DNA from: Pelobacter propionicus DSM 2379
Lineage (GTDB): Bacteria; Desulfobacterota; Desulfuromonadia; Geobacterales; Pseudopelobacteraceae
Direction: 5' to 3'
DNA length: 64,000 nucleotides
NCBI RefSeq assembly: GCF_000015045.1
Contig: NC_008609.1
Coordinates: 1,479,001 to 1,543,000, forward strand
The position numbers and the translations under genes are program-made. The number at the start of each line of letters is the position of its first letter. Position 1 is the first letter of the stretch. Below the pieces are notes generated by a model. The model did not search any database and was not told the origin of the DNA. It saw only the letters and a list, made by a program, of their open reading frames with translations. Shown one piece after another: positions 28,551-52,295 of the stretch.

Positions 28551-29162
28551 ATGGCGCCGGTACGACGCAAGAAGAGTACGATAAACCTGCTGGTCCCCTT
28601 CCTGATCATCGCCCTGGTGTTCGGTTTCCTGATCTGGAACAAGTACCGCGCCAGCCGCATGCCCAACCCCCGGCCCCATGTGCAGCACCCCTCGGGTAGC
28701 CGCAGGGTGGTGCTGTTCTTCGTGGCCGACGGGACCCGTCTTGCCCGGGAGGCCCGGGAGCTGGAGTCGTGCGCGGATACCGCCTCCTGTGTCAGGGAAA
28801 CCCTGAATGAGCTCTTCAACGGCCCGCTGGGGGAGCTGGACAAGGCTCTGCCTGAGGGGGCCCTGCTGAATAACGTGCGGGTGGAGGGGGATACGGCGCT
28901 GGTAGACCTGAGCCGCACCTTCGTGGATGCCATGCCATCGGGCAGTTCGGCCGAGATGATGGCGGTCTACTCCATCGTCAACACGGTCTGCGTCAATTTT
29001 CCCGCTATTACCAAGGTGCGGCTGACGGTGGCAGGGGAGGGGAACCTCATCCTGAAACACCTGGACCTGTCCGCACCGCTGACCGCCGACTATGGGCTGG
29101 AGGGGCCGCCCTCCGATGCCGCGAAACCATCACATACAGACACCACAGGGGGTACACCATGA
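28551..29162 (+). CDS. GerMN domain protein
   Basis: A 203-residue protein with a basic N-terminus, one membrane anchor (about residues 11-30) and a periplasmic GerMN domain (about 50-180; LFFVADGTRL, LFNGPLGE, VDLSRTFVDAMPSGSSAE). GerMN domains occur in sporulation protein GerM and in lipoproteins linked to the cell wall; in Gram-negative bacteria their role is not known, though position next to murI suggests a wall connection. The last four bases overlap the start of the next gene as ATGA. Confidence 0.88.
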   Translation: MAPVRRKKSTINLLVPFLIIALVFGFLIWNKYRASRMPNPRPHVQHPSGSRRVVLFFVADGTRLAREARELESCADTASCVRETLNELFNGPLGELDKALPEGALLNNVRVEGDTALVDLSRTFVDAMPSGSSAEMMAVYSIVNTVCVNFPAITKVRLTVAGEGNLILKHLDLSAPLTADYGLEGPPSDAAKPSHTDTTGGTP

Positions 29163-31579
29163 CACCATTTCTCGAGGCGATCCAGGAGAGGGTGCTGATT
29201 CTGGACGGGGCCATGGGTACCATGCTTCAGGAGCGGGGGCTTCGGCCGGGCCAGTCTCCCGAAGAACTCAACCTGACCATGCCCGATGTGGTGGCGTCGG
29301 TCCACCGTGAGTATATCGAGGCTGGCGCCGACATCATCATCACCAACAGCTTCGGCGGATCGCGCTTCAAGCTGGCCCACTTTGGGCTGGAAGGGCGCCT
29401 GGCCGAGATCAACGCCCGCGCCGTGGAGATTGCCCGTGGCGAGGCGCGGGGCAGGGCCTATGTGGGCGGCTCCATGGGTCCCACCGGTCAGTTCGTGGAG
29501 CCCTTGGGTGAGGTTTCCTTCGACCGTATGAAAGAATCCTTCCGTGAGCAGGCCGAGGCGCTGGTCTCGGCCGGGGTCGATCTGATCAGCCTGGAGACCT
29601 TCCTGGACATCAAGGAGTGCCGCGCAGCGGTGATCGCCATCCGCGAGGTCTCGCCGACCATCCCGATCATCGCCATGATGACTTTCGATGACAACGGCCG
29701 TTCCGTATTGGGAACGCCGCCCGAGGCCGCCGCCATCACCCTGGCCGCTGCTGGCGTCGATATCGTCGGCTCCAACTGCGGGCTGGGGGTGGAGGGGATC
29801 CACGACATCCTGGTGCGCATGCGCCGGGTGACCTCCCTGCCGCTCATCTCCCAGGCCAACGCGGGGCTGCCGATCCTGAAAGACGGAATCACCGTCTTCC
29901 CCGGAACCCCACGGGAGATGACCGACTACCACGACCGGCTGATCAGCCTGGGGGTGCGGGTGATCGGCGGCTGCTGCGGCACCACGCCGGCACATATCAG
30001 GGCCATGAAGGAGGCCCTTGCCGGCCGCCAGCAGGTTTGGCAGGAACCGACTCACCTGGAAGGAATGACCCTGCTCTCCTGCCGGGGCGGGTGGACCGCC
30101 GTGGGGCCCGGCCAGAAGACCGCCATCATCGGCGAACGTATCAACCCCACCGGCAAGAAGCTCTACTCCAAGGAACTGCAGGAGGGAAAGGTCTCCTACA
30201 TCCGCCGCGAGGCCATGGAGCAGGCGCAGTTGGGGGCCACGTTGCTGGACCTGAACGTGGGGGCGCCGGGGATCGACGAGCCGGTTGCCATGGAGCGGGC
30301 CGTGTTCTGCGCCAGCGGGGCAGTCGGCGTGCCGCTGGTGCTGGATTCCTCCAGCCCTGCCGCCCTGGAGGCGGGGCTCAAGGCGGCCGACGGCAAGGTG
30401 CTGATCAACTCCGTCTCCGGCGAGGCCAAGAGCCTCTCCCGGGTGCTGCCACTGGCCAAGAAGTACGGTGCAGCCCTGATCGGCCTGACCCTGGATGCCA
30501 AGGGGATACCGGACAGCGCCGAGGGGAGGCTGGCCATCGCCCGCAGGATCCGCAACGCCGCCCGGCGGCAGGGGATTCCTGACCAGGACATCATCATCGA
30601 CTGCCTGACCCTGACGGTCAGCGCCGAGCAGAAACGGGCGGCCGAGACCCTGCGCACCATCCGTCTGGTCAAGGAGAAGCTGGGGCTCTCCACGGTGCTG
30701 GGGGTCAGCAACATCTCTTTTGGCCTGCCCCAGCGGCCGCTGATCTCGTCCTCGTTCTTCTCCATGGCCATGGCCGCCGGTCTGGATGCGGCCATCATCA
30801 ACCCAAGGGAAAAGGCCATGATGGATGCCTGGCGTTCGGCCATGGTGCTGCTCAACCGCGACCCACGGGCCGAAGCATTCATCCAGACCTATCGGGACGA
30901 ACAGGCGGTTGCCACGCCCGCCGCCCCTGTTTCGGACGCGCCCCAGGAGATCCGGCAGCGGCTGGGCCAGGCGGTGATCAACGGCGACAGGGACGGCATC
31001 ATCGGGCTGGTGGAAGAGGCTCTGGCCCAGGGGCTGGCCCCGCTGCAGATCAGCAACGAAGGATTCCTCCCCGGCCTGGAGGAGGTGGGGCGGCGTTTCG
31101 AGAAGAACATCTTCTTCCTCCCCCAGGTGATGCAGTCGGCCGATACCATGCACGCCGGTTTCGCCCGCCTCAAGGAGGAGATGAAGGGGCAGCCTCTGGA
31201 GAGCCGCGGCCGAATCCTGATGGCCACCGTGGAGGGGGACATCCACGATATCGGCAAGAACATCGTCTGCACCCTGCTGGAGAATCACGGCTTTGAGGTG
31301 TTCGACATCGGCAAGAACGTGTCTGCCGCCACCATCGTCGCCAAGGCCAGGGAGTTCGGGGTGGATGCTGTGGGTCTCTCGGCGCTGATGACCACCACCA
31401 TGGCCGAGATGGACACGGTCCTCAAGAAGCTCAAGGCGGTGGGGATCAAGGCATTCACCATGATCGGCGGAGCTGTGGTGACCCAGGAGTACGCCGACCG
31501 CATCGGCGCCGATATCTACGCCCGTGACGCCATGGAGGCGGTGGCCAAGGTCAAGAAACTGCTCCAGATAGCCGATTAG
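29159..31579 (+). CDS. metH: Cobalamin-dependent methionine synthase, short form without activation domain
   Basis: An 806-residue methyltransferase that should carry a methyl group from methyltetrahydrofolate through cobalamin to homocysteine. Domains: homocysteine-binding barrel (1-290) with zinc cysteines in GSNCGLG (about 206) and GGCCGTT (about 270-271); pterin-binding barrel (about 310-560; IGERINPTGKK); cobalamin cap (about 610-680); B12 domain with EGDIHDIGKN (DxHxxG, about 692-697). The C-terminal SAM-dependent reactivation domain of E. coli MetH is absent, as in several anaerobes, so reactivation must use a separate protein. Translation is coupled to the GerMN gene by a 4-base overlap. 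Confidence 0.92.
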   Translation: MTPFLEAIQERVLILDGAMGTMLQERGLRPGQSPEELNLTMPDVVASVHREYIEAGADIIITNSFGGSRFKLAHFGLEGRLAEINARAVEIARGEARGRAYVGGSMGPTGQFVEPLGEVSFDRMKESFREQAEALVSAGVDLISLETFLDIKECRAAVIAIREVSPTIPIIAMMTFDDNGRSVLGTPPEAAAITLAAAGVDIVGSNCGLGVEGIHDILVRMRRVTSLPLISQANAGLPILKDGITVFPGTPREMTDYHDRLISLGVRVIGGCCGTTPAHIRAMKEALAGRQQVWQEPTHLEGMTLLSCRGGWTAVGPGQKTAIIGERINPTGKKLYSKELQEGKVSYIRREAMEQAQLGATLLDLNVGAPGIDEPVAMERAVFCASGAVGVPLVLDSSSPAALEAGLKAADGKVLINSVSGEAKSLSRVLPLAKKYGAALIGLTLDAKGIPDSAEGRLAIARRIRNAARRQGIPDQDIIIDCLTLTVSAEQKRAAETLRTIRLVKEKLGLSTVLGVSNISFGLPQRPLISSSFFSMAMAAGLDAAIINPREKAMMDAWRSAMVLLNRDPRAEAFIQTYRDEQAVATPAAPVSDAPQEIRQRLGQAVINGDRDGIIGLVEEALAQGLAPLQISNEGFLPGLEEVGRRFEKNIFFLPQVMQSADTMHAGFARLKEEMKGQPLESRGRILMATVEGDIHDIGKNIVCTLLENHGFEVFDIGKNVSAATIVAKAREFGVDAVGLSALMTTTMAEMDTVLKKLKAVGIKAFTMIGGAVVTQEYADRIGADIYARDAMEAVAKVKKLLQIAD

Positions 31580-47540: not shown

Positions 47541-47615
47541 GGGCGCTTAGCTCAGCGGGAGAGCACTGCCTTCACACGGCAGGGGTCACTGGTTCGATCC
47601 CAGTAGCGCCCACCA
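47541..47615 (+). tRNA. tRNA-Val, anticodon CAC
   Basis: A full cloverleaf folds from 47541: acceptor GGGCGCT pairs with AGCGCCC, the D arm starts TAGCTCAGC, the anticodon stem CTGCC/GGCAG holds the loop TTCACAC (anticodon CAC, reading GUG valine codons), and the T arm is CTGGTTCGATCCCAG. The CCA end is encoded. A good promoter lies just upstream and a terminator follows eight bases later, so it is a single-tRNA transcription unit. Confidence 0.97.
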
Positions 47616-47934: not shown

Positions 47935-50010
47935 TCAGGTGGGAGCGTCTTGGGTAAACAGTTCCTCCAGCACCCTGATCAGATCCTGCATGCTGTAGGG
48001 TTTGGATAGAATGGTGCAGAACCCGTGACTGCGGAAATCGGGCAGTGCCATGTCACTGGCATAGCCGCTGGAGACTATCCCCTTTACCTCCGGGTCGATT
48101 TCCCGCAGGCGCGCCATGGTTTCCCTGCCCCCCATTCCTCCCGGGACCGTCAAATCAAGAATGACCGCATCGAAGGGGTCTCTACTGTCTCGAGCCCGCT
48201 GGTAACGGGTCAGAGTCTCTTTTCCGTCGCAGGCTGTTTCAACCCGGTGCCCCAGCATATTCAGCATGGAGGTGATGACGTCCCGCAGCATTTCCTCATC
48301 ATCCATAACCAGGATTTTGCAAGGGCGTGTCAGGATCTGATGGGGTTCGACCGAGGGAGGGAGTACAGTGGCCACCGTGGCCGGGAGAAAGATGCTGAAG
48401 ATGGCTCCCTTACCGGGCGGCGAATTAACTTCGATGTAACCGCCATGATTTCTGATAATGGAGTAGGAGGATGCCAGTCCTAGGCCACTACCTTGCCGCT
48501 TTGTGGTGAAGTAGGGATCGAAGATGCGGGGCAGGACCTCGGGCGTAATCCCTTCTCCCTGATCTTCTATGTCGATCCTGACAAGGTCTGCCTCCCCCTC
48601 CGTGACAGCGGCAACGTTGCTGCAGGTGATGGTGATGACTCCACCGTGTGGCATGGCCTGCACCGCGTTGATCACCAGGTTGTGGATCACTTGGCTGATC
48701 TGTCCCTCGTCTATTTCCGCCTGCCAGAGTCCGTTGGCTACGTGGAAGTTGCAGAAGGTTCCGCTTCCTCGTACGACAAAGGAGGCGCTCTCCCTCACGA
48801 TCTGCTCGACGGAGGCAAGCCTCCTGACCGGAGCGCCCCCTTTGGAGAAGGTCAGTAGCTGGAGGGTCAGGTCGCGGGCGCGCAAACAAGCCTTTTCGCT
48901 TTCGGCCAGTAGAGAAACCGAACGGGAGCCAGGCTGGAGTAACATGGAGGCAAGCGAGATATTGCCCATGATGGCGGCCAGCAGGTTGTTGAAGTCGTGG
49001 GCGATACCGCCGGCAAGAAGGCCGATGGATTCCATCTTCTGGTTCTTGAAGAGGTCCTGTTCCATCTTCTTGGTATCGGTAATGTCGCGGCAGATGGTGT
49101 GCAGTAGGGGGCGCCCGGCTGTTGTCATCATCCTCATGGTCACCAGCACATCGCGGAACTCCCCACCTTTGGCGCACAATCTGGCCTCGAAGGTGTGGTC
49201 CCCACGCTCCAAAGCAATTCGGACGCGCCGAGCAACCTCATTCCGATCATCCTGCGCCGCAACGTCCGGTATCGCCAGGGCCGCGAACTCGTCGAGGGAA
49301 TAGCCCAGCATCCGGTGGGCGGCATGGTTGCAACGGAGTGTTCTCAAGGATTCGGGGTCGATCAGCATGATGCCGTCAGGGGACTGCTCGAAGAGCATGC
49401 GGTACAGTTTCTCCGCCTCCTGGCGAGCAGTCGTTTCTCGTTCCAGGGCTTGATGTGTCTGGAGCAGTTGTTGGTGGGTCTGTTCCAGCACACTGTAGTT
49501 GGAGATCTCGTTGCCGAGCATCAAGGCTGCGTAGACGAAGAATGGCTGCAGTTGGATGCGGATGGAGTCGTGAGCGATGATCATCCCCTCCATCACCACG
49601 ACTCCCACCAGACGCTGCTGCACCAGCAGGGGAAAGGCCCAGTTCTCCGGGCGACTGTCACCGGGGAGAAACTCCCGCGCATCCTGCTGTTCCCGCTGGA
49701 AGATACGCTCCCGTACGCAGGCTGCTACCAGGGGGGTGTCGGGCGACTCCATCTCACGGGCGCTTCCGAAGAGATCGCGGCAGTGCCAACGGCCATCGAC
49801 GAGGTAGTAAACCAGCAGATTGAACGCGCCGATGGTTTCCATCAGGGTTCGAAGGATCTGCTCAACAACGTTTTCCAGGCCACTGGCCGAAGTGAGGCTG
49901 AGCAGCATGCGGTTGATCAGTTTCAGGTGGGCATTATCCCGGGCAAGGTCGGTCACCCTGCCGCGCAGCGTTTCCAGTTCTCCCGGCGGTGTAATGGATT
50001 CTTCGTTCAC
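47935..50010 (-). CDS. Soluble hybrid sensor kinase, GAF-PAS-HisKA-HATPase-receiver
   Basis: A 691-residue cytoplasmic signalling protein without membrane segments. GAF-like sensor (about 45-200), coiled coil, PAS (about 205-325, with GYSLDEFAALAIPD), H-box GGIAHDFNNLLAAIMGN with His near 338, ATPase domain (DQGEGITPEVLPRIFDPYFT, GSGLGLASSY) and a C-terminal receiver domain (about 565-690; acidic VMDDEE, phosphoacceptor Asp near 619 in VILDLTVPGG, Lys in LSKPYS). The GTG start overlaps the stop of the DUF1638 gene as GTGA, so the sensor is translated together with a corrinoid methyltransferase module and probably senses its substrate or redox state. No DNA-binding partner is adjacent. Confidence 0.9.
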   Translation of the reverse strand: MNEESITPPGELETLRGRVTDLARDNAHLKLINRMLLSLTSASGLENVVEQILRTLMETIGAFNLLVYYLVDGRWHCRDLFGSAREMESPDTPLVAACVRERIFQREQQDAREFLPGDSRPENWAFPLLVQQRLVGVVVMEGMIIAHDSIRIQLQPFFVYAALMLGNEISNYSVLEQTHQQLLQTHQALERETTARQEAEKLYRMLFEQSPDGIMLIDPESLRTLRCNHAAHRMLGYSLDEFAALAIPDVAAQDDRNEVARRVRIALERGDHTFEARLCAKGGEFRDVLVTMRMMTTAGRPLLHTICRDITDTKKMEQDLFKNQKMESIGLLAGGIAHDFNNLLAAIMGNISLASMLLQPGSRSVSLLAESEKACLRARDLTLQLLTFSKGGAPVRRLASVEQIVRESASFVVRGSGTFCNFHVANGLWQAEIDEGQISQVIHNLVINAVQAMPHGGVITITCSNVAAVTEGEADLVRIDIEDQGEGITPEVLPRIFDPYFTTKRQGSGLGLASSYSIIRNHGGYIEVNSPPGKGAIFSIFLPATVATVLPPSVEPHQILTRPCKILVMDDEEMLRDVITSMLNMLGHRVETACDGKETLTRYQRARDSRDPFDAVILDLTVPGGMGGRETMARLREIDPEVKGIVSSGYASDMALPDFRSHGFCTILSKPYSMQDLIRVLEELFTQDAPT

Positions 50011-50591
50011 GTAGCGTCCTTGAACGCGGCCCGGATGGTTGCCTTCAGGGTCCGTTCCAGTTCCTCAAGCCCGACATCGATCCAGCGCAGGTCCAGAGTG
50101 GTGCTGCGGGAGATTTCTTTGGCTTGGAGCGTGAAGTCACCCGAGCAGGGGGTGCGGATGGCCAGCAGGTACTGGTGGGCCGACCGGAAGATGTCGGCCA
50201 CAACCGAAGGGGACATCCCTTGGCTGCCGCCGATGATACTGTCCCAGTGCAGAGCCCACTCCTCGAACAGGAAGAAGGCGCCAGCGGCCAGTTCACGATC
50301 AAATAACTCGCGCCCCAGGTATATCTCCACGCAGTTCTGGCCGGGCGTGCGGATGCAATGGGCGTCCTCGAGTATCCGCTCCATAAGGGGGTGACAGGCG
50401 CCGTAGAACAGCATGGCCGACCGGTCGTGGCGTCTGAGACACTCCTCCAGGGCGTGCCTGAGTTTTTCAAAATCCACATGCAACCCTGAGGGAAGAAACA
50501 GGGGGGTGATCGCCCAGTGGTTTTTCCTGATCAGGAAGTCGATCTCCTTTCGCAGGATTCCGCAGGCGATCATAGTCAGGGGGGCGCCCAT
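50007..50591 (-). CDS. DUF1638 protein of a corrinoid methyltransferase cluster
   Basis: A 194-residue soluble protein of the DUF1638 type: it opens MGAPLTMIACGILRKEIDFL, has YGACHPLMERIL near residue 62 and NCVEIYLGRELFD near 87 (cysteines at about 10, 65 and 87 could bind a metal or cofactor). Proteins of this family are found next to methylamine- and methanol-type methyltransferases in methanogens and acetogens, but no activity has been assigned. Here it sits between the UroD-like methyltransferase (one base away) and the sensor kinase (4-base overlap), so all three are translated together. Confidence 0.85.
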   Translation of the reverse strand: MGAPLTMIACGILRKEIDFLIRKNHWAITPLFLPSGLHVDFEKLRHALEECLRRHDRSAMLFYGACHPLMERILEDAHCIRTPGQNCVEIYLGRELFDRELAAGAFFLFEEWALHWDSIIGGSQGMSPSVVADIFRSAHQYLLAIRTPCSGDFTLQAKEISRSTTLDLRWIDVGLEELERTLKATIRAAFKDAT

Positions 50592-50592
50592 A

Positions 50593-51630
50593 TCAGGCCC
50601 CCCTCTTGTAGCTTCCGTACCGATAGGCTGACTCCAGCATGGCGCGGATATTCTCCTCCGGGATGACGTATGGCATCATCAGCGTGCCAAAGGCAAAACC
50701 GGTCACCCTTTTGCCCTGTTCCATGATGCCCTTAACCTGATCATCGATCTCCTCTTTGCTGCCGTTGATCAAGCGGATGTCGTTGATCGTGCCCACCAGC
50801 AGTGCCTGGCCGTTCAGCATCCCGGCTGCCTCGCCGATATCGTCGAAGGGGTTGATGTAGAATGCCCGCAGAGGGGTCTGCTCCACGAGTGTCTTCAGCT
50901 GGGGATTGATCTGGCCGCCACCGTTGAAATAGACCAGATCACCTGTTCCTATCCCCTCCAGATCCCGCAGCACCGAGGGGAGTACCAGATCATGGAACTG
51001 GCGGGATGTGACGAACGTGGCCGTGCCGACCGAATTGGTGTAGACAATCAGGTCGGCTCCGGCTTGGCGAAGCGCCAGGATTTGGCGACGGCAGAACTGG
51101 GAACATTTCTCCAAGAGCAGCGAACGGAGTTCGGTCGGCCCGCTGAGAAAGAGATTCAGCCATCCGGAGATGCCCATCAGCATGGCGGGCAGGGTGAAGG
51201 ACGCGGTCACCACACCGATCACCGGGAAGCGTCCCGCCGCCTCCCGTTTGAGGATGCGGATGCAGGCGGACAGTTCCCTGAAACGAGGCAGCTCTTCCAT
51301 GTCATCCGGTATCTGGAGCCTCCTGATATCCTCCGGCTCGCTGATGATCAGCTGTCCCACGTTGGGTGGGCCGTCCTCGGCGTAGATGATTGAGCGGCAG
51401 CCGAGCATCTCCGCCTCCATGGCTACATAGAACAGCCCAAGTAGACTATCGTAGCCGTACTTCTTCCGCATGTGCAGTTGCCCTTCAGCCACGTTCTCGC
51501 CGCGCCGGTAGTACTCCTTGATGCTCATACCGAGCTCACGGGCTCCCTGGTCCAGCAGATTGCACAGGACTGGTACCCGATCGGGGAGCTGGCCGGCCAT
51601 GATTGCCTGGAACCGCTGCATTCCGGTCAT
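50593..51630 (-). CDS. Uroporphyrinogen-decarboxylase-like corrinoid methyltransferase (MtaA/MtbA/CmuA type)
   Basis: A 345-residue TIM-barrel protein of the URO-D superfamily. It begins TGMQRFQAIMAGQLPDRVPV, has VIGVVTASFTLPAMLMG at about 136, QILALRQAGADLIVYTNSVG (about 190) and a C-terminal zinc-type region. Haem-pathway HemE would have a different N-terminus and conserved arginines; the pairing with a B12-binding protein fits the group that transfers methyl groups between a corrinoid protein and a thiol or folate. The methyl acceptor is unknown. ATGA overlap with the corrinoid gene upstream. Confidence 0.88.
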   Translation of the reverse strand: MTGMQRFQAIMAGQLPDRVPVLCNLLDQGARELGMSIKEYYRRGENVAEGQLHMRKKYGYDSLLGLFYVAMEAEMLGCRSIIYAEDGPPNVGQLIISEPEDIRRLQIPDDMEELPRFRELSACIRILKREAAGRFPVIGVVTASFTLPAMLMGISGWLNLFLSGPTELRSLLLEKCSQFCRRQILALRQAGADLIVYTNSVGTATFVTSRQFHDLVLPSVLRDLEGIGTGDLVYFNGGGQINPQLKTLVEQTPLRAFYINPFDDIGEAAGMLNGQALLVGTINDIRLINGSKEEIDDQVKGIMEQGKRVTGFAFGTLMMPYVIPEENIRAMLESAYRYGSYKRGA

Positions 51631-52295
51631 TGCGCACGTACCTCCTTGATCAGGCGGGAGATGATCTCCGCCCCCTCCACTGCCGTTGCCGCCCAGGCAT
51701 CTGCCCCCGCCTGGAGGTAGAGTTGCTCATCGTAGCGGTAGGGGGCGCCTCCCACTATCAGCTTGATCCGCTCTTCCAGCCCCCCCTCACGGAGCAGCTG
51801 CCGTACTCGTCTGGAACCCATATCCCCCAGGGCGGTGTGGACCATCATGGAGGATACGCTGATCACCTGGGCCCCACCGTTCACCGCCGCCTCCACGAAA
51901 CGCTCAGGGCGGACATTGATTCCCAGGTCGGTCACCTGAAACATCTTGGCTCTCAGGCAGCCCCCCACGATCTTCTTCCCAAGACCATGGAAATCGCCGA
52001 AACTGCTGCCGATTATCACATGCCCCTGCATCTCCGGCGCGGTTGCAAAGCGGGGAATCAGCATGTCGGTGACCTCTTCGGCAATCTGGGACGCCAGGAA
52101 GTGCTGGGAGAGGGTAACCAGCGAATCGGTCACCATACCGCCGATCATCTTCTCCATGGAGGGGACGATGATCCCGAAAATGACCTCTTCGGGGGTAACG
52201 CCACCATCCAAGGCCTGCCGGATAACTTCTAAAGCCCGATCACGGTCGGTATCGAAAACGGCGTCGAAATAGTCGTTCAGATATCTGTTTTCCAT
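51627..52295 (-). CDS. Corrinoid (B12-binding) protein, MtaC/MtbC-like
   Basis: A 222-residue methyl carrier. Residues 1-90 form the helical cap that shields the methyl-cobamide (RALEVIRQALDGGVTPEEVI, GGMVTDSLVTLSQHFLASQI); the Rossmann-type B12 domain follows with SSFGDFHGLGKKIV, in which D-x-H-x-x-G (about 102-107) supplies the lower-face histidine. The ATG at 52295 has AGGAA six bases upstream. It is the first gene of a tightly packed operon with a UroD-type methyltransferase, DUF1638 protein and sensor kinase. A substrate-specific methyltransferase and a reductive activator are not present here. Confidence 0.9.
   Translation of the reverse strand: MENRYLNDYFDAVFDTDRDRALEVIRQALDGGVTPEEVIFGIIVPSMEKMIGGMVTDSLVTLSQHFLASQIAEEVTDMLIPRFATAPEMQGHVIIGSSFGDFHGLGKKIVGGCLRAKMFQVTDLGINVRPERFVEAAVNGGAQVISVSSMMVHTALGDMGSRRVRQLLREGGLEERIKLIVGGAPYRYDEQLYLQAGADAWAATAVEGAEIISRLIKEVRAQ

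Follow-up and report, generated by a model that had tools for sequence, protein, structure and literature searches.

We examined a stretch of 64,000 nucleotides from Pelobacter propionicus DSM 2379 (contig NC_008609.1, positions 1,479,001 to 1,543,000; hereafter the window), which carries four consecutive genes for a corrinoid carrier protein (COR), a UroD-type methyltransferase (URO), a DUF1638 protein and a sensor kinase. All results reported here are computational, and gene starts were placed by a simple open reading frame (ORF) rule, which often makes them too long. Loci compared with the window are designated by L numbers. The features of the locus, with lengths in amino acids (aa), are:

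51627..52295, minus strand: COR, corrinoid-binding carrier protein, 222 aa, Pfam B12-binding and B12-binding_2
50593..51630, minus strand: URO, UroD-type methyltransferase, 345 aa, Pfam URO-D
50007..50591, minus strand: DUF1638 protein, 194 aa, Pfam PF07796
47935..50010, minus strand: GAF-PAS-HisKA-HATPase-receiver hybrid kinase, 691 aa, GTG start
47541-47615, plus strand: tRNA-Val, beyond the kinase gene

The junctions COR/URO, URO/DUF1638 and DUF1638/kinase measure -4 (ATGA), +1 and -4 (GTGA) bases, and both the ORF calls and the junction letters agree with the order and spacing given in the first-pass annotation. Because the genes overlap, they likely share a promoter. That annotation had placed all four behind one promoter, an element that scanning did not reveal. 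A consensus scan gave 4 sites against 2.7 +/- 1.4 in shuffled sequence, which is no excess, and a single strong promoter was dropped. No sigma-54-like site was found upstream of COR, the window as a whole holding 13 matches against a shuffled mean of 18.7.

COR matches Pfam B12-binding (2e-19) together with the B12-binding_2 cap domain, and its motif D101-x-H103-x-x-G106 belongs to a D-x-H-x-x-G signature that is invariant in 96/96 sequences. With cap, binding domain and signature, it has the make-up of the MtbC/MtgC/MtaC-type corrinoid proteins, and its best match in the PDB is a cobalamin-binding protein (1y80). It scores below the NCBIfam subfamily cut-offs, reaching 99.1 of 215.3 bits for TIGR02370 and 87.9 of 310 for MtgC. 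URO matches Pfam URO-D (4.3e-58), and its profile aligns over positions 5-338 to MtaA 4ay7, the closest solved structure, which amounts to full-length similarity to the UroD family. In MtaA/MtbA enzymes, an H-x-C motif and a later cysteine are the zinc ligands for thiol activation. The H-x-C site was found in 0/95 module sequences; a cysteine lies within the corresponding stretch in 52/95 and within the second cysteine stretch in 6/95, and the window URO has one in neither. Its scores are far under the NCBIfam cut-offs (MtaA, 79.6 of 400 bits; MtbA, 63.4 of 600; mtaA_cmuA, 81 of 235.4), and several residues are invariant among the 95 sequences. COR and URO form one polypeptide of ~563 aa, COR first, in L113, L117, L118, L124, L128, L131 and L150; the domain order of CmuA is the reverse. 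The URO of L086 (L086:4962-5950, on a contig shared with L172) is broken by a frameshift or an assembly error into two frames that overlap, the rest of the module being intact.

The DUF1638 protein matches PF07796 with 3e-30 and 105.7 bits, against a gathering cut-off of 27. Four residues stand out, C10, H38, C66 and C87 in window numbering. Counted on all 127 non-redundant rows (78 module, 49 not), C66 and C87 occur in 127/127, C10 in 124/127 (3 gaps) and H38 in 126/127; the alignment used for modelling (A3) held 89/127 rows, the more distant ones being omitted. This pattern points to a probable Cys3-His metal site. The model of the protein is confident, with a predicted local distance difference test score (pLDDT) of 95.4. 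A solved relative was sought by sequence, where the best E of 0.84 is unconvincing, and kinship with the two-lobed periplasmic-binding/LacI-like folds was dropped as weak (Foldseek best E 5.4e-4, TM 0.42). A fold search with VIA gave at best Z 8.8 and a root-mean-square deviation (rmsd) of 2.6 over 98 residues, which we do not treat as kinship. Very long DUF1638 proteins occur outside the module class (L187:6240-9176, 978 aa; L195:5671-8526, 951 aa).

The first-pass annotation gave DUF1638 no assigned role, a statement that is outdated. The papers cited here by PMC number are represented by excerpts, and statements about them hold for those excerpts. In Phaeobacter inhibens, a DUF1638 gene is needed for methionine synthesis and was proposed, from mutant fitness, to act in B12 reactivation, although the authors of that work made no specific proposal for its part (PMC5764234). 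The same role is cited for Ruegeria pomeroyi (PMC12478193).

The fourth protein matches Pfam PAS, HisKA, HATPase_c (2.8e-25) and Response_reg (7.3e-16). HisKA reaches 24.6 bits, slightly under its cut-off of 26.9, and the H-box GGIAHDFNN is present; HisKA, HATPase_c and receiver together make it a hybrid histidine kinase. Residues 1-190 correspond to a conserved GAF domain. In Pfam at E 0.001 this GAF-like N-terminus has no match, and no PocR domain is found in the kinase; the GAF fold is predicted for the same domain in a relative, the fused protein of L073 (pLDDT 92.3, predicted TM-score 0.76; against PDE2A, Z 16.6 and rmsd 2.8 over 153 residues). Haem-binding residues, which the earlier annotation had proposed looking for, did not emerge, as no His or Cys is kept at >=93% across 75 GAF domains, a count of family-wide conservation that a ligand confined to a subgroup could escape.

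We then considered how far this arrangement is conserved. A PF07796 search of 76 genomes of the family gave 40 matches in 29 genomes, of which the window and 36 fetched loci were examined, three of the 40 being left out (G032:C56, G035:C96, G025:C82). COR-URO-DUF1638 clusters make up 35 of these 37; L089 and L090 are not clusters. Relatives of URO with 47-63% identity keep this gene arrangement across several genera, and also in a second family of the taxonomic order. Among DUF1638 relatives from named genomes, nearly all of the best 80 of 161 lie in the cluster; the query came from module-type DUF1638 only, and this survey indicates spread, not frequency. Record titles with the cluster include Citrifermentans, Geobacter, Methylomonas, Methylobacter, Gallionellaceae, Mariprofundus and Desulfospira, as well as Terasakiella, Magnetococcales, Spirochaetales, Verrucomicrobia, Planctomycetota, Ignavibacteriales, Marinilabiliales and Holophagaceae, although many of these loci are metagenome bins and some titles are perhaps wrong (L111 and L112 appear near-identical under different taxon names). 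Among the genera named are reducers and oxidisers of iron, methanotrophs and sulfate reducers. Because it is found again across phyla, the four-gene arrangement is, on comparative grounds, far beyond chance. The order that the first-pass annotation proposed to seek in relatives is thus conserved in the family and beyond, and far from being unusual in a Geobacter-like organism, as had been thought, it is what most DUF1638 matches of the family belong to.

To define a module class, we took loci whose DUF1638 scored >=200 with a hidden Markov model (HMM) built from the family matches, the listed scores leaving a gap from 208 to 113. This yielded 97 non-redundant loci, or 122 with near-duplicates and the window included (121 without the window). 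URO is present in 96/97 and COR in 94/97, the loci without COR (L122, L145, L157) being contigs that start inside URO. The control set came mainly from a phylum survey in which 84/345 genomes had DUF1638. From it, 54 loci were picked by hand: 3 proved to be modules (L207, L208, L211), 47 were not, and 4 (L196, L209, L226, L227) were removed by a length, score or letter filter. The 47, with L089 and L090, give 49 control loci.

A signalling gene adjoins or is fused to DUF1638 in 92/97 module loci against 1/49 other DUF1638 loci, as detected by HMMs from module loci and motif patterns, which can miss distant kinases near non-module DUF1638. The single control case, a kinase right after DUF1638 in L215, is confirmed by Pfam. 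Any kinase within the fetched stretch was found in 113/122 module and 5/49 non-module loci. The protein next to DUF1638 in the 97 loci is a GAF-kinase-receiver (35), a GAF-kinase (23), a GAF-GGDEF protein (1), a GAF protein without an output detected by our script (10, several ended by the contig) or another kinase (18); DUF1638 is itself part of a GAF-kinase fusion in 4 and of a GAF-PAS-HD-GYP fusion in 1 (L207), the contig ends there in 1, and 4 were left unclassified by the script (a cut ETR1_N-like ORF in L128, a GAF-PAS protein in L085, and L071 and L149, discussed below). Spacing is tight, with a gap of <=10 bases, overlaps counted, at 80/91 scored DUF1638 junctions; among the raw 119 unfused loci, near-duplicates included, 78 have a 4-base and 10 a 1-base overlap. 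On a tree of 78 module and 44 other DUF1638 rows, the module label requires 2 changes against a shuffled mean of 36, close to one clade although many forks are weak, and the module-type DUF1638 may be of single origin. Gene order and fusions indicate that the trio is kept as a unit and that nearly all the proteins which follow it, or are fused to it, act in signalling. The kinase of the window does belong with the corrinoid genes, as had been proposed, the order being conserved and its GAF domain recurring alongside them.

What follows the GAF domain varies. Pfam scans of 28 representative signalling and neighbour proteins revealed several HisKA kinase types, hybrid kinases, a diguanylate cyclase, PAS-only adapters and an HD-GYP-type output. 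The arrangements that depart from the window are:

L088:6510-8561: diguanylate cyclase (GAF-GGDEF) output, by Pfam
L115, L119, L136: PAS-only adapters, by Pfam
L073, L074, L077, L122: DUF1638-GAF-kinase fusions
L207:5919-8486: 855-aa protein that joins DUF1638 to a weak Pfam GAF, two PAS domains and an HD-GYP-type domain, after COR and URO
L113:8616-10520: ethylene-receptor-like (ETR1_N) ORF right after DUF1638, Gallionellaceae-type, by Pfam
L118:8594-10495, L124:8429-10870, L128:4277-5110 (cut), L131:8603-11992, L150:8594-10486: ETR1_N-like ORFs right after DUF1638, by similarity to L113

Two tandem GAF proteins occur in L070, L088 and L094. On a GAF tree of 63 rows, the 16 output labels require 22 changes (minimum 15, shuffled mean 39.6), with moderate support, and the GGDEF protein nests among kinases. 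In most loci, the comparison indicates that the N-terminal GAF domain is constant and the output is exchanged. The ETR1_N-like loci listed are all of Gallionellaceae type and have a fused COR-URO; L117, which has one too, instead carries a PAS kinase, and such a kinase also follows DUF1638 in L126 and, with a near-identical start, L139, where COR and URO are separate. An ethylene-receptor domain as a general part of the module was dropped, being confined to a minority of loci. Because ETR1_N-like or PAS kinases replace the GAF protein in these loci, even the receiver of the signal is, by this comparison, apparently exchangeable. L147 has an ETR1_N-like protein upstream of the cluster, and this one carries GGDEF-EAL.

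It appears fairly probable to us that COR, URO and DUF1638 form a dedicated, portable input module which reports a methyl-transfer or corrinoid state to a signalling protein, mainly because the trio and the GAF domain are fixed while the output varies. Corrinoid carriers accept methyl groups from methyltransferases or donate to them, and their Co(I) state needs reductive rescue. In the mechanism that we propose, URO would transfer a methyl group to or from the corrinoid of COR, with a small molecule as the partner, and DUF1638, with its probable Cys3-His metal site, would dock on COR and either join in its redox reset or read its state. DUF1638 would contact both COR and the GAF protein. The GAF domain would then receive the state of COR (methylated, Co(I) or Co(II)) and, in the window, switch the PAS-HisKA-receiver kinase. 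What is sensed would be either a methylated compound or the one-carbon/redox status. A broader proposal, which we put forward with some hesitation and hold to have rather less than an even chance, is that of a widespread receptor class in which corrinoid methyl transfer is itself the sensing event, URO loading or unloading COR, DUF1638 reading the cobalt state, and interchangeable GAF proteins relaying the result as phosphorelay or cyclic-di-GMP.

The most serious alternative, which we judge unlikely, is that of a small catabolic or assimilatory methyltransferase operon whose kinase senses the substrate by GAF-PAS and turns on the corrinoid genes, in the manner of MecA or MsmS/RdmS. There are precedents: the mec cassette brings together a histidine kinase, a corrinoid protein, a methyltransferase I (MTI) and a receiver (PMC9768040), MsmS and RdmS regulate methyl sulfide genes in Methanosarcina (PMC6944256), and the MtaA/CmuA (UroD-type) family includes the MTI enzymes for methanol and chloromethane. 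Against this reading, MttB (PF06253) was found neither in the genome of the window, in keeping with the first-pass observation that the module lacks a substrate-specific methyltransferase, nor in any of the 76 family genomes, some of which are incomplete. With one phmmer query, a pterin methyltransferase of methyltransferase II (MTII) type was matched in 9/49 non-module loci and in 0/121 module loci besides the window, where the match is a MetH-like ORF (29159-31579) ~16 kilobases (kb) from the kinase; the folate partnership with this MetH suggested earlier is accordingly not borne out. Moreover, GGDEF and HD-GYP outputs have no direct control of transcription, some loci have DUF1638 and the sensor in one polypeptide, and many neighbours (kinases, receivers, MCP, CheW, GGDEF-EAL), though not exclusively, belong to signalling.

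A sensor without methyl chemistry was also considered: the corrinoid of COR would respond to redox state or oxygen, COR reporting Co(I)/Co(II), and URO would serve as a lid or pseudo-enzyme. The zinc site missing from all 95 URO sequences, the module genomes in which no RACo-type activase was found (see below) and the three conserved cysteines and histidine of DUF1638, which would suit a redox cofactor, all fit this idea, but URO is kept in 96/97 loci (some contig-cut, that of L086 split) and several of its residues are invariant across 95 sequences, more than a lid would seem to need. A RACo gene also lies in the fetched stretch of 35/97 loci, and we consider the idea improbable. That the genes merely share an operon, by chance or as housekeeping neighbours without joint function, is scarcely credible: operons can hold unrelated genes, but the same order across many named lineages, the DUF1638-GAF and COR-URO fusions and the overlaps at most junctions already contradict it.

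Several observations weigh against the input-module reading. The proposed link from COR to the GAF domain is drawn from gene comparison, and linked genes would equally be expected of a catabolic operon that carries a regulator of its own. The deep forks of the GAF and DUF1638 trees are weakly supported, and the Gallionellaceae-type loci, in which an ETR1_N-like or PAS kinase takes the place of the GAF protein, mean that GAF is not the sole possible receiver. In L071, a phosphonate-binding-type protein stands between DUF1638 and the kinase, and L149:7306-8585 (Candidatus Methylobacter oryzae) has RACo, COR, DUF1638 and a short unclassified ORF, with no URO and no adjoining signalling gene. RACo, which a COR cycling through Co(I) should require, was not found in 11/28 module genomes of the family, some of them reported as 98-100% complete, and a co-occurrence of RACo with the module was rejected, the gene being present in 17/28 module genomes and 32/48 genomes without the module. 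Finally, nitrogenase component 1 genes occur in 10 fetched stretches and aminotransferase genes in 7, with near-duplicates counted.

Where RACo is near the module, it usually lies directly upstream of COR, and the gene in L113 is the one confirmed by Pfam. The first-pass annotation correctly saw no activator in the operon: the only RACo-type gene found in the genome of the window lies elsewhere (L232:5513-6775) and encodes a 420-aa protein that starts in the middle region, so that the 2Fe-2S (ferredoxin) domain is apparently absent. Because it is missing from those 11 module genomes and equally common without the module, RACo is, by this comparison, a frequent partner and apparently not a fixed part. 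The near-complete genomes G029, G016, G034, G070 and G033 (L075, L077, L078, L082, L091) have the module and no RACo match, which means that the rescue of the corrinoid must take another route in them or be unneeded.

Besides kinases, receivers and RACo, recurrent neighbours are of REC-GGDEF-EAL type (15 loci), MCP (13), phosphonate-binding type (9) and CheW (8); these counts include near-duplicates, each cluster being named from one Pfam-scanned member. An earlier view that the module has no metabolic neighbours was dropped, as nitrogenase component 1 and aminotransferase genes recur. The surroundings, as annotated by similarity, lean to signalling and are not free of metabolism. Searches of the window and of five module loci gave no cobalamin riboswitch at gathering score, and a role in anti-phage defence was rejected, the four window proteins being without a PADLOC match. 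The nitrogenase component 1 genes, a few kb from modules and on contigs partly with two or three modules, are (one Pfam-scanned, the rest by similarity):

L063:12936-14405
L067:3-668
L069:14131-15000
L094:13890-14999
L110:13969-16569
L172:15002-16543

The closest known systems share parts of the module. In the split methionine synthase and glycine betaine demethylase of Phaeobacter inhibens and Ruegeria pomeroyi, a corrinoid protein again combines the B12 cap with a binding domain and has DUF1638 as a neighbour, and a RamA-like activase is encoded in the genome (PMC5764234, PMC12478193). Homocysteine and pterin modules and the MtgB demethylase are part of those systems, and no kinase is named in the excerpts, whereas the window has a UroD-type URO and a sensor, and its family yielded no MttB. 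The mec cassette of anaerobic dichloromethane degraders also gathers a histidine kinase, a corrinoid protein and an MtaA/CmuA-type methyltransferase in one cluster, with reactivation proteins in most strains (PMC9768040). Its MTII, separate receiver protein, transporter and PocR-domain kinase have no counterpart in the four-gene cluster of the window, and the outputs of the module vary by lineage. MsmS and RdmS of Methanosarcina acetivorans are kinases with GAF and PAS domains and, like the kinase of the window, are associated with genes for corrinoid methyltransferases (PMC6944256, PMC11784639). Their targets are methyl sulfide genes and they have no H-box; the kinase of the window carries both an H-box and a receiver, and neither His nor Cys is conserved in its GAF family.

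The MtaA/MtbA methylcobamide:coenzyme M methyltransferases belong to the UroD family like URO, which matches them best among solved structures, and differ in the zinc site and subfamily scores given above. Photocobilins and CarH-type B12 receptors use a corrinoid-binding domain in signalling, and the GGDEF-named chain 8j2y, presumably a photocobilin, distantly matches COR. Photocobilins and CarH are fused light receptors; here, by contrast, the carrier is separate and linked to a methyltransferase and DUF1638. Full-text searches of the open-access literature gave no description of a COR-URO-DUF1638 signalling module, and an earlier mention is possible in subscription journals, which were mostly outside this scope.

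Corrinoid methyltransferases are known chiefly as metabolic enzymes, and here one set adjoins or is fused with exchangeable signalling outputs. The in-frame DUF1638-GAF fusions are ready-made constructs for testing the input role. If the trio is an input module, DUF1638 would gain a testable role as reader or resetter of the corrinoid state, kinases and cyclic-di-GMP proteins without an assigned input would gain a candidate signal, and bacteria would be using B12 methyl chemistry as a sense.

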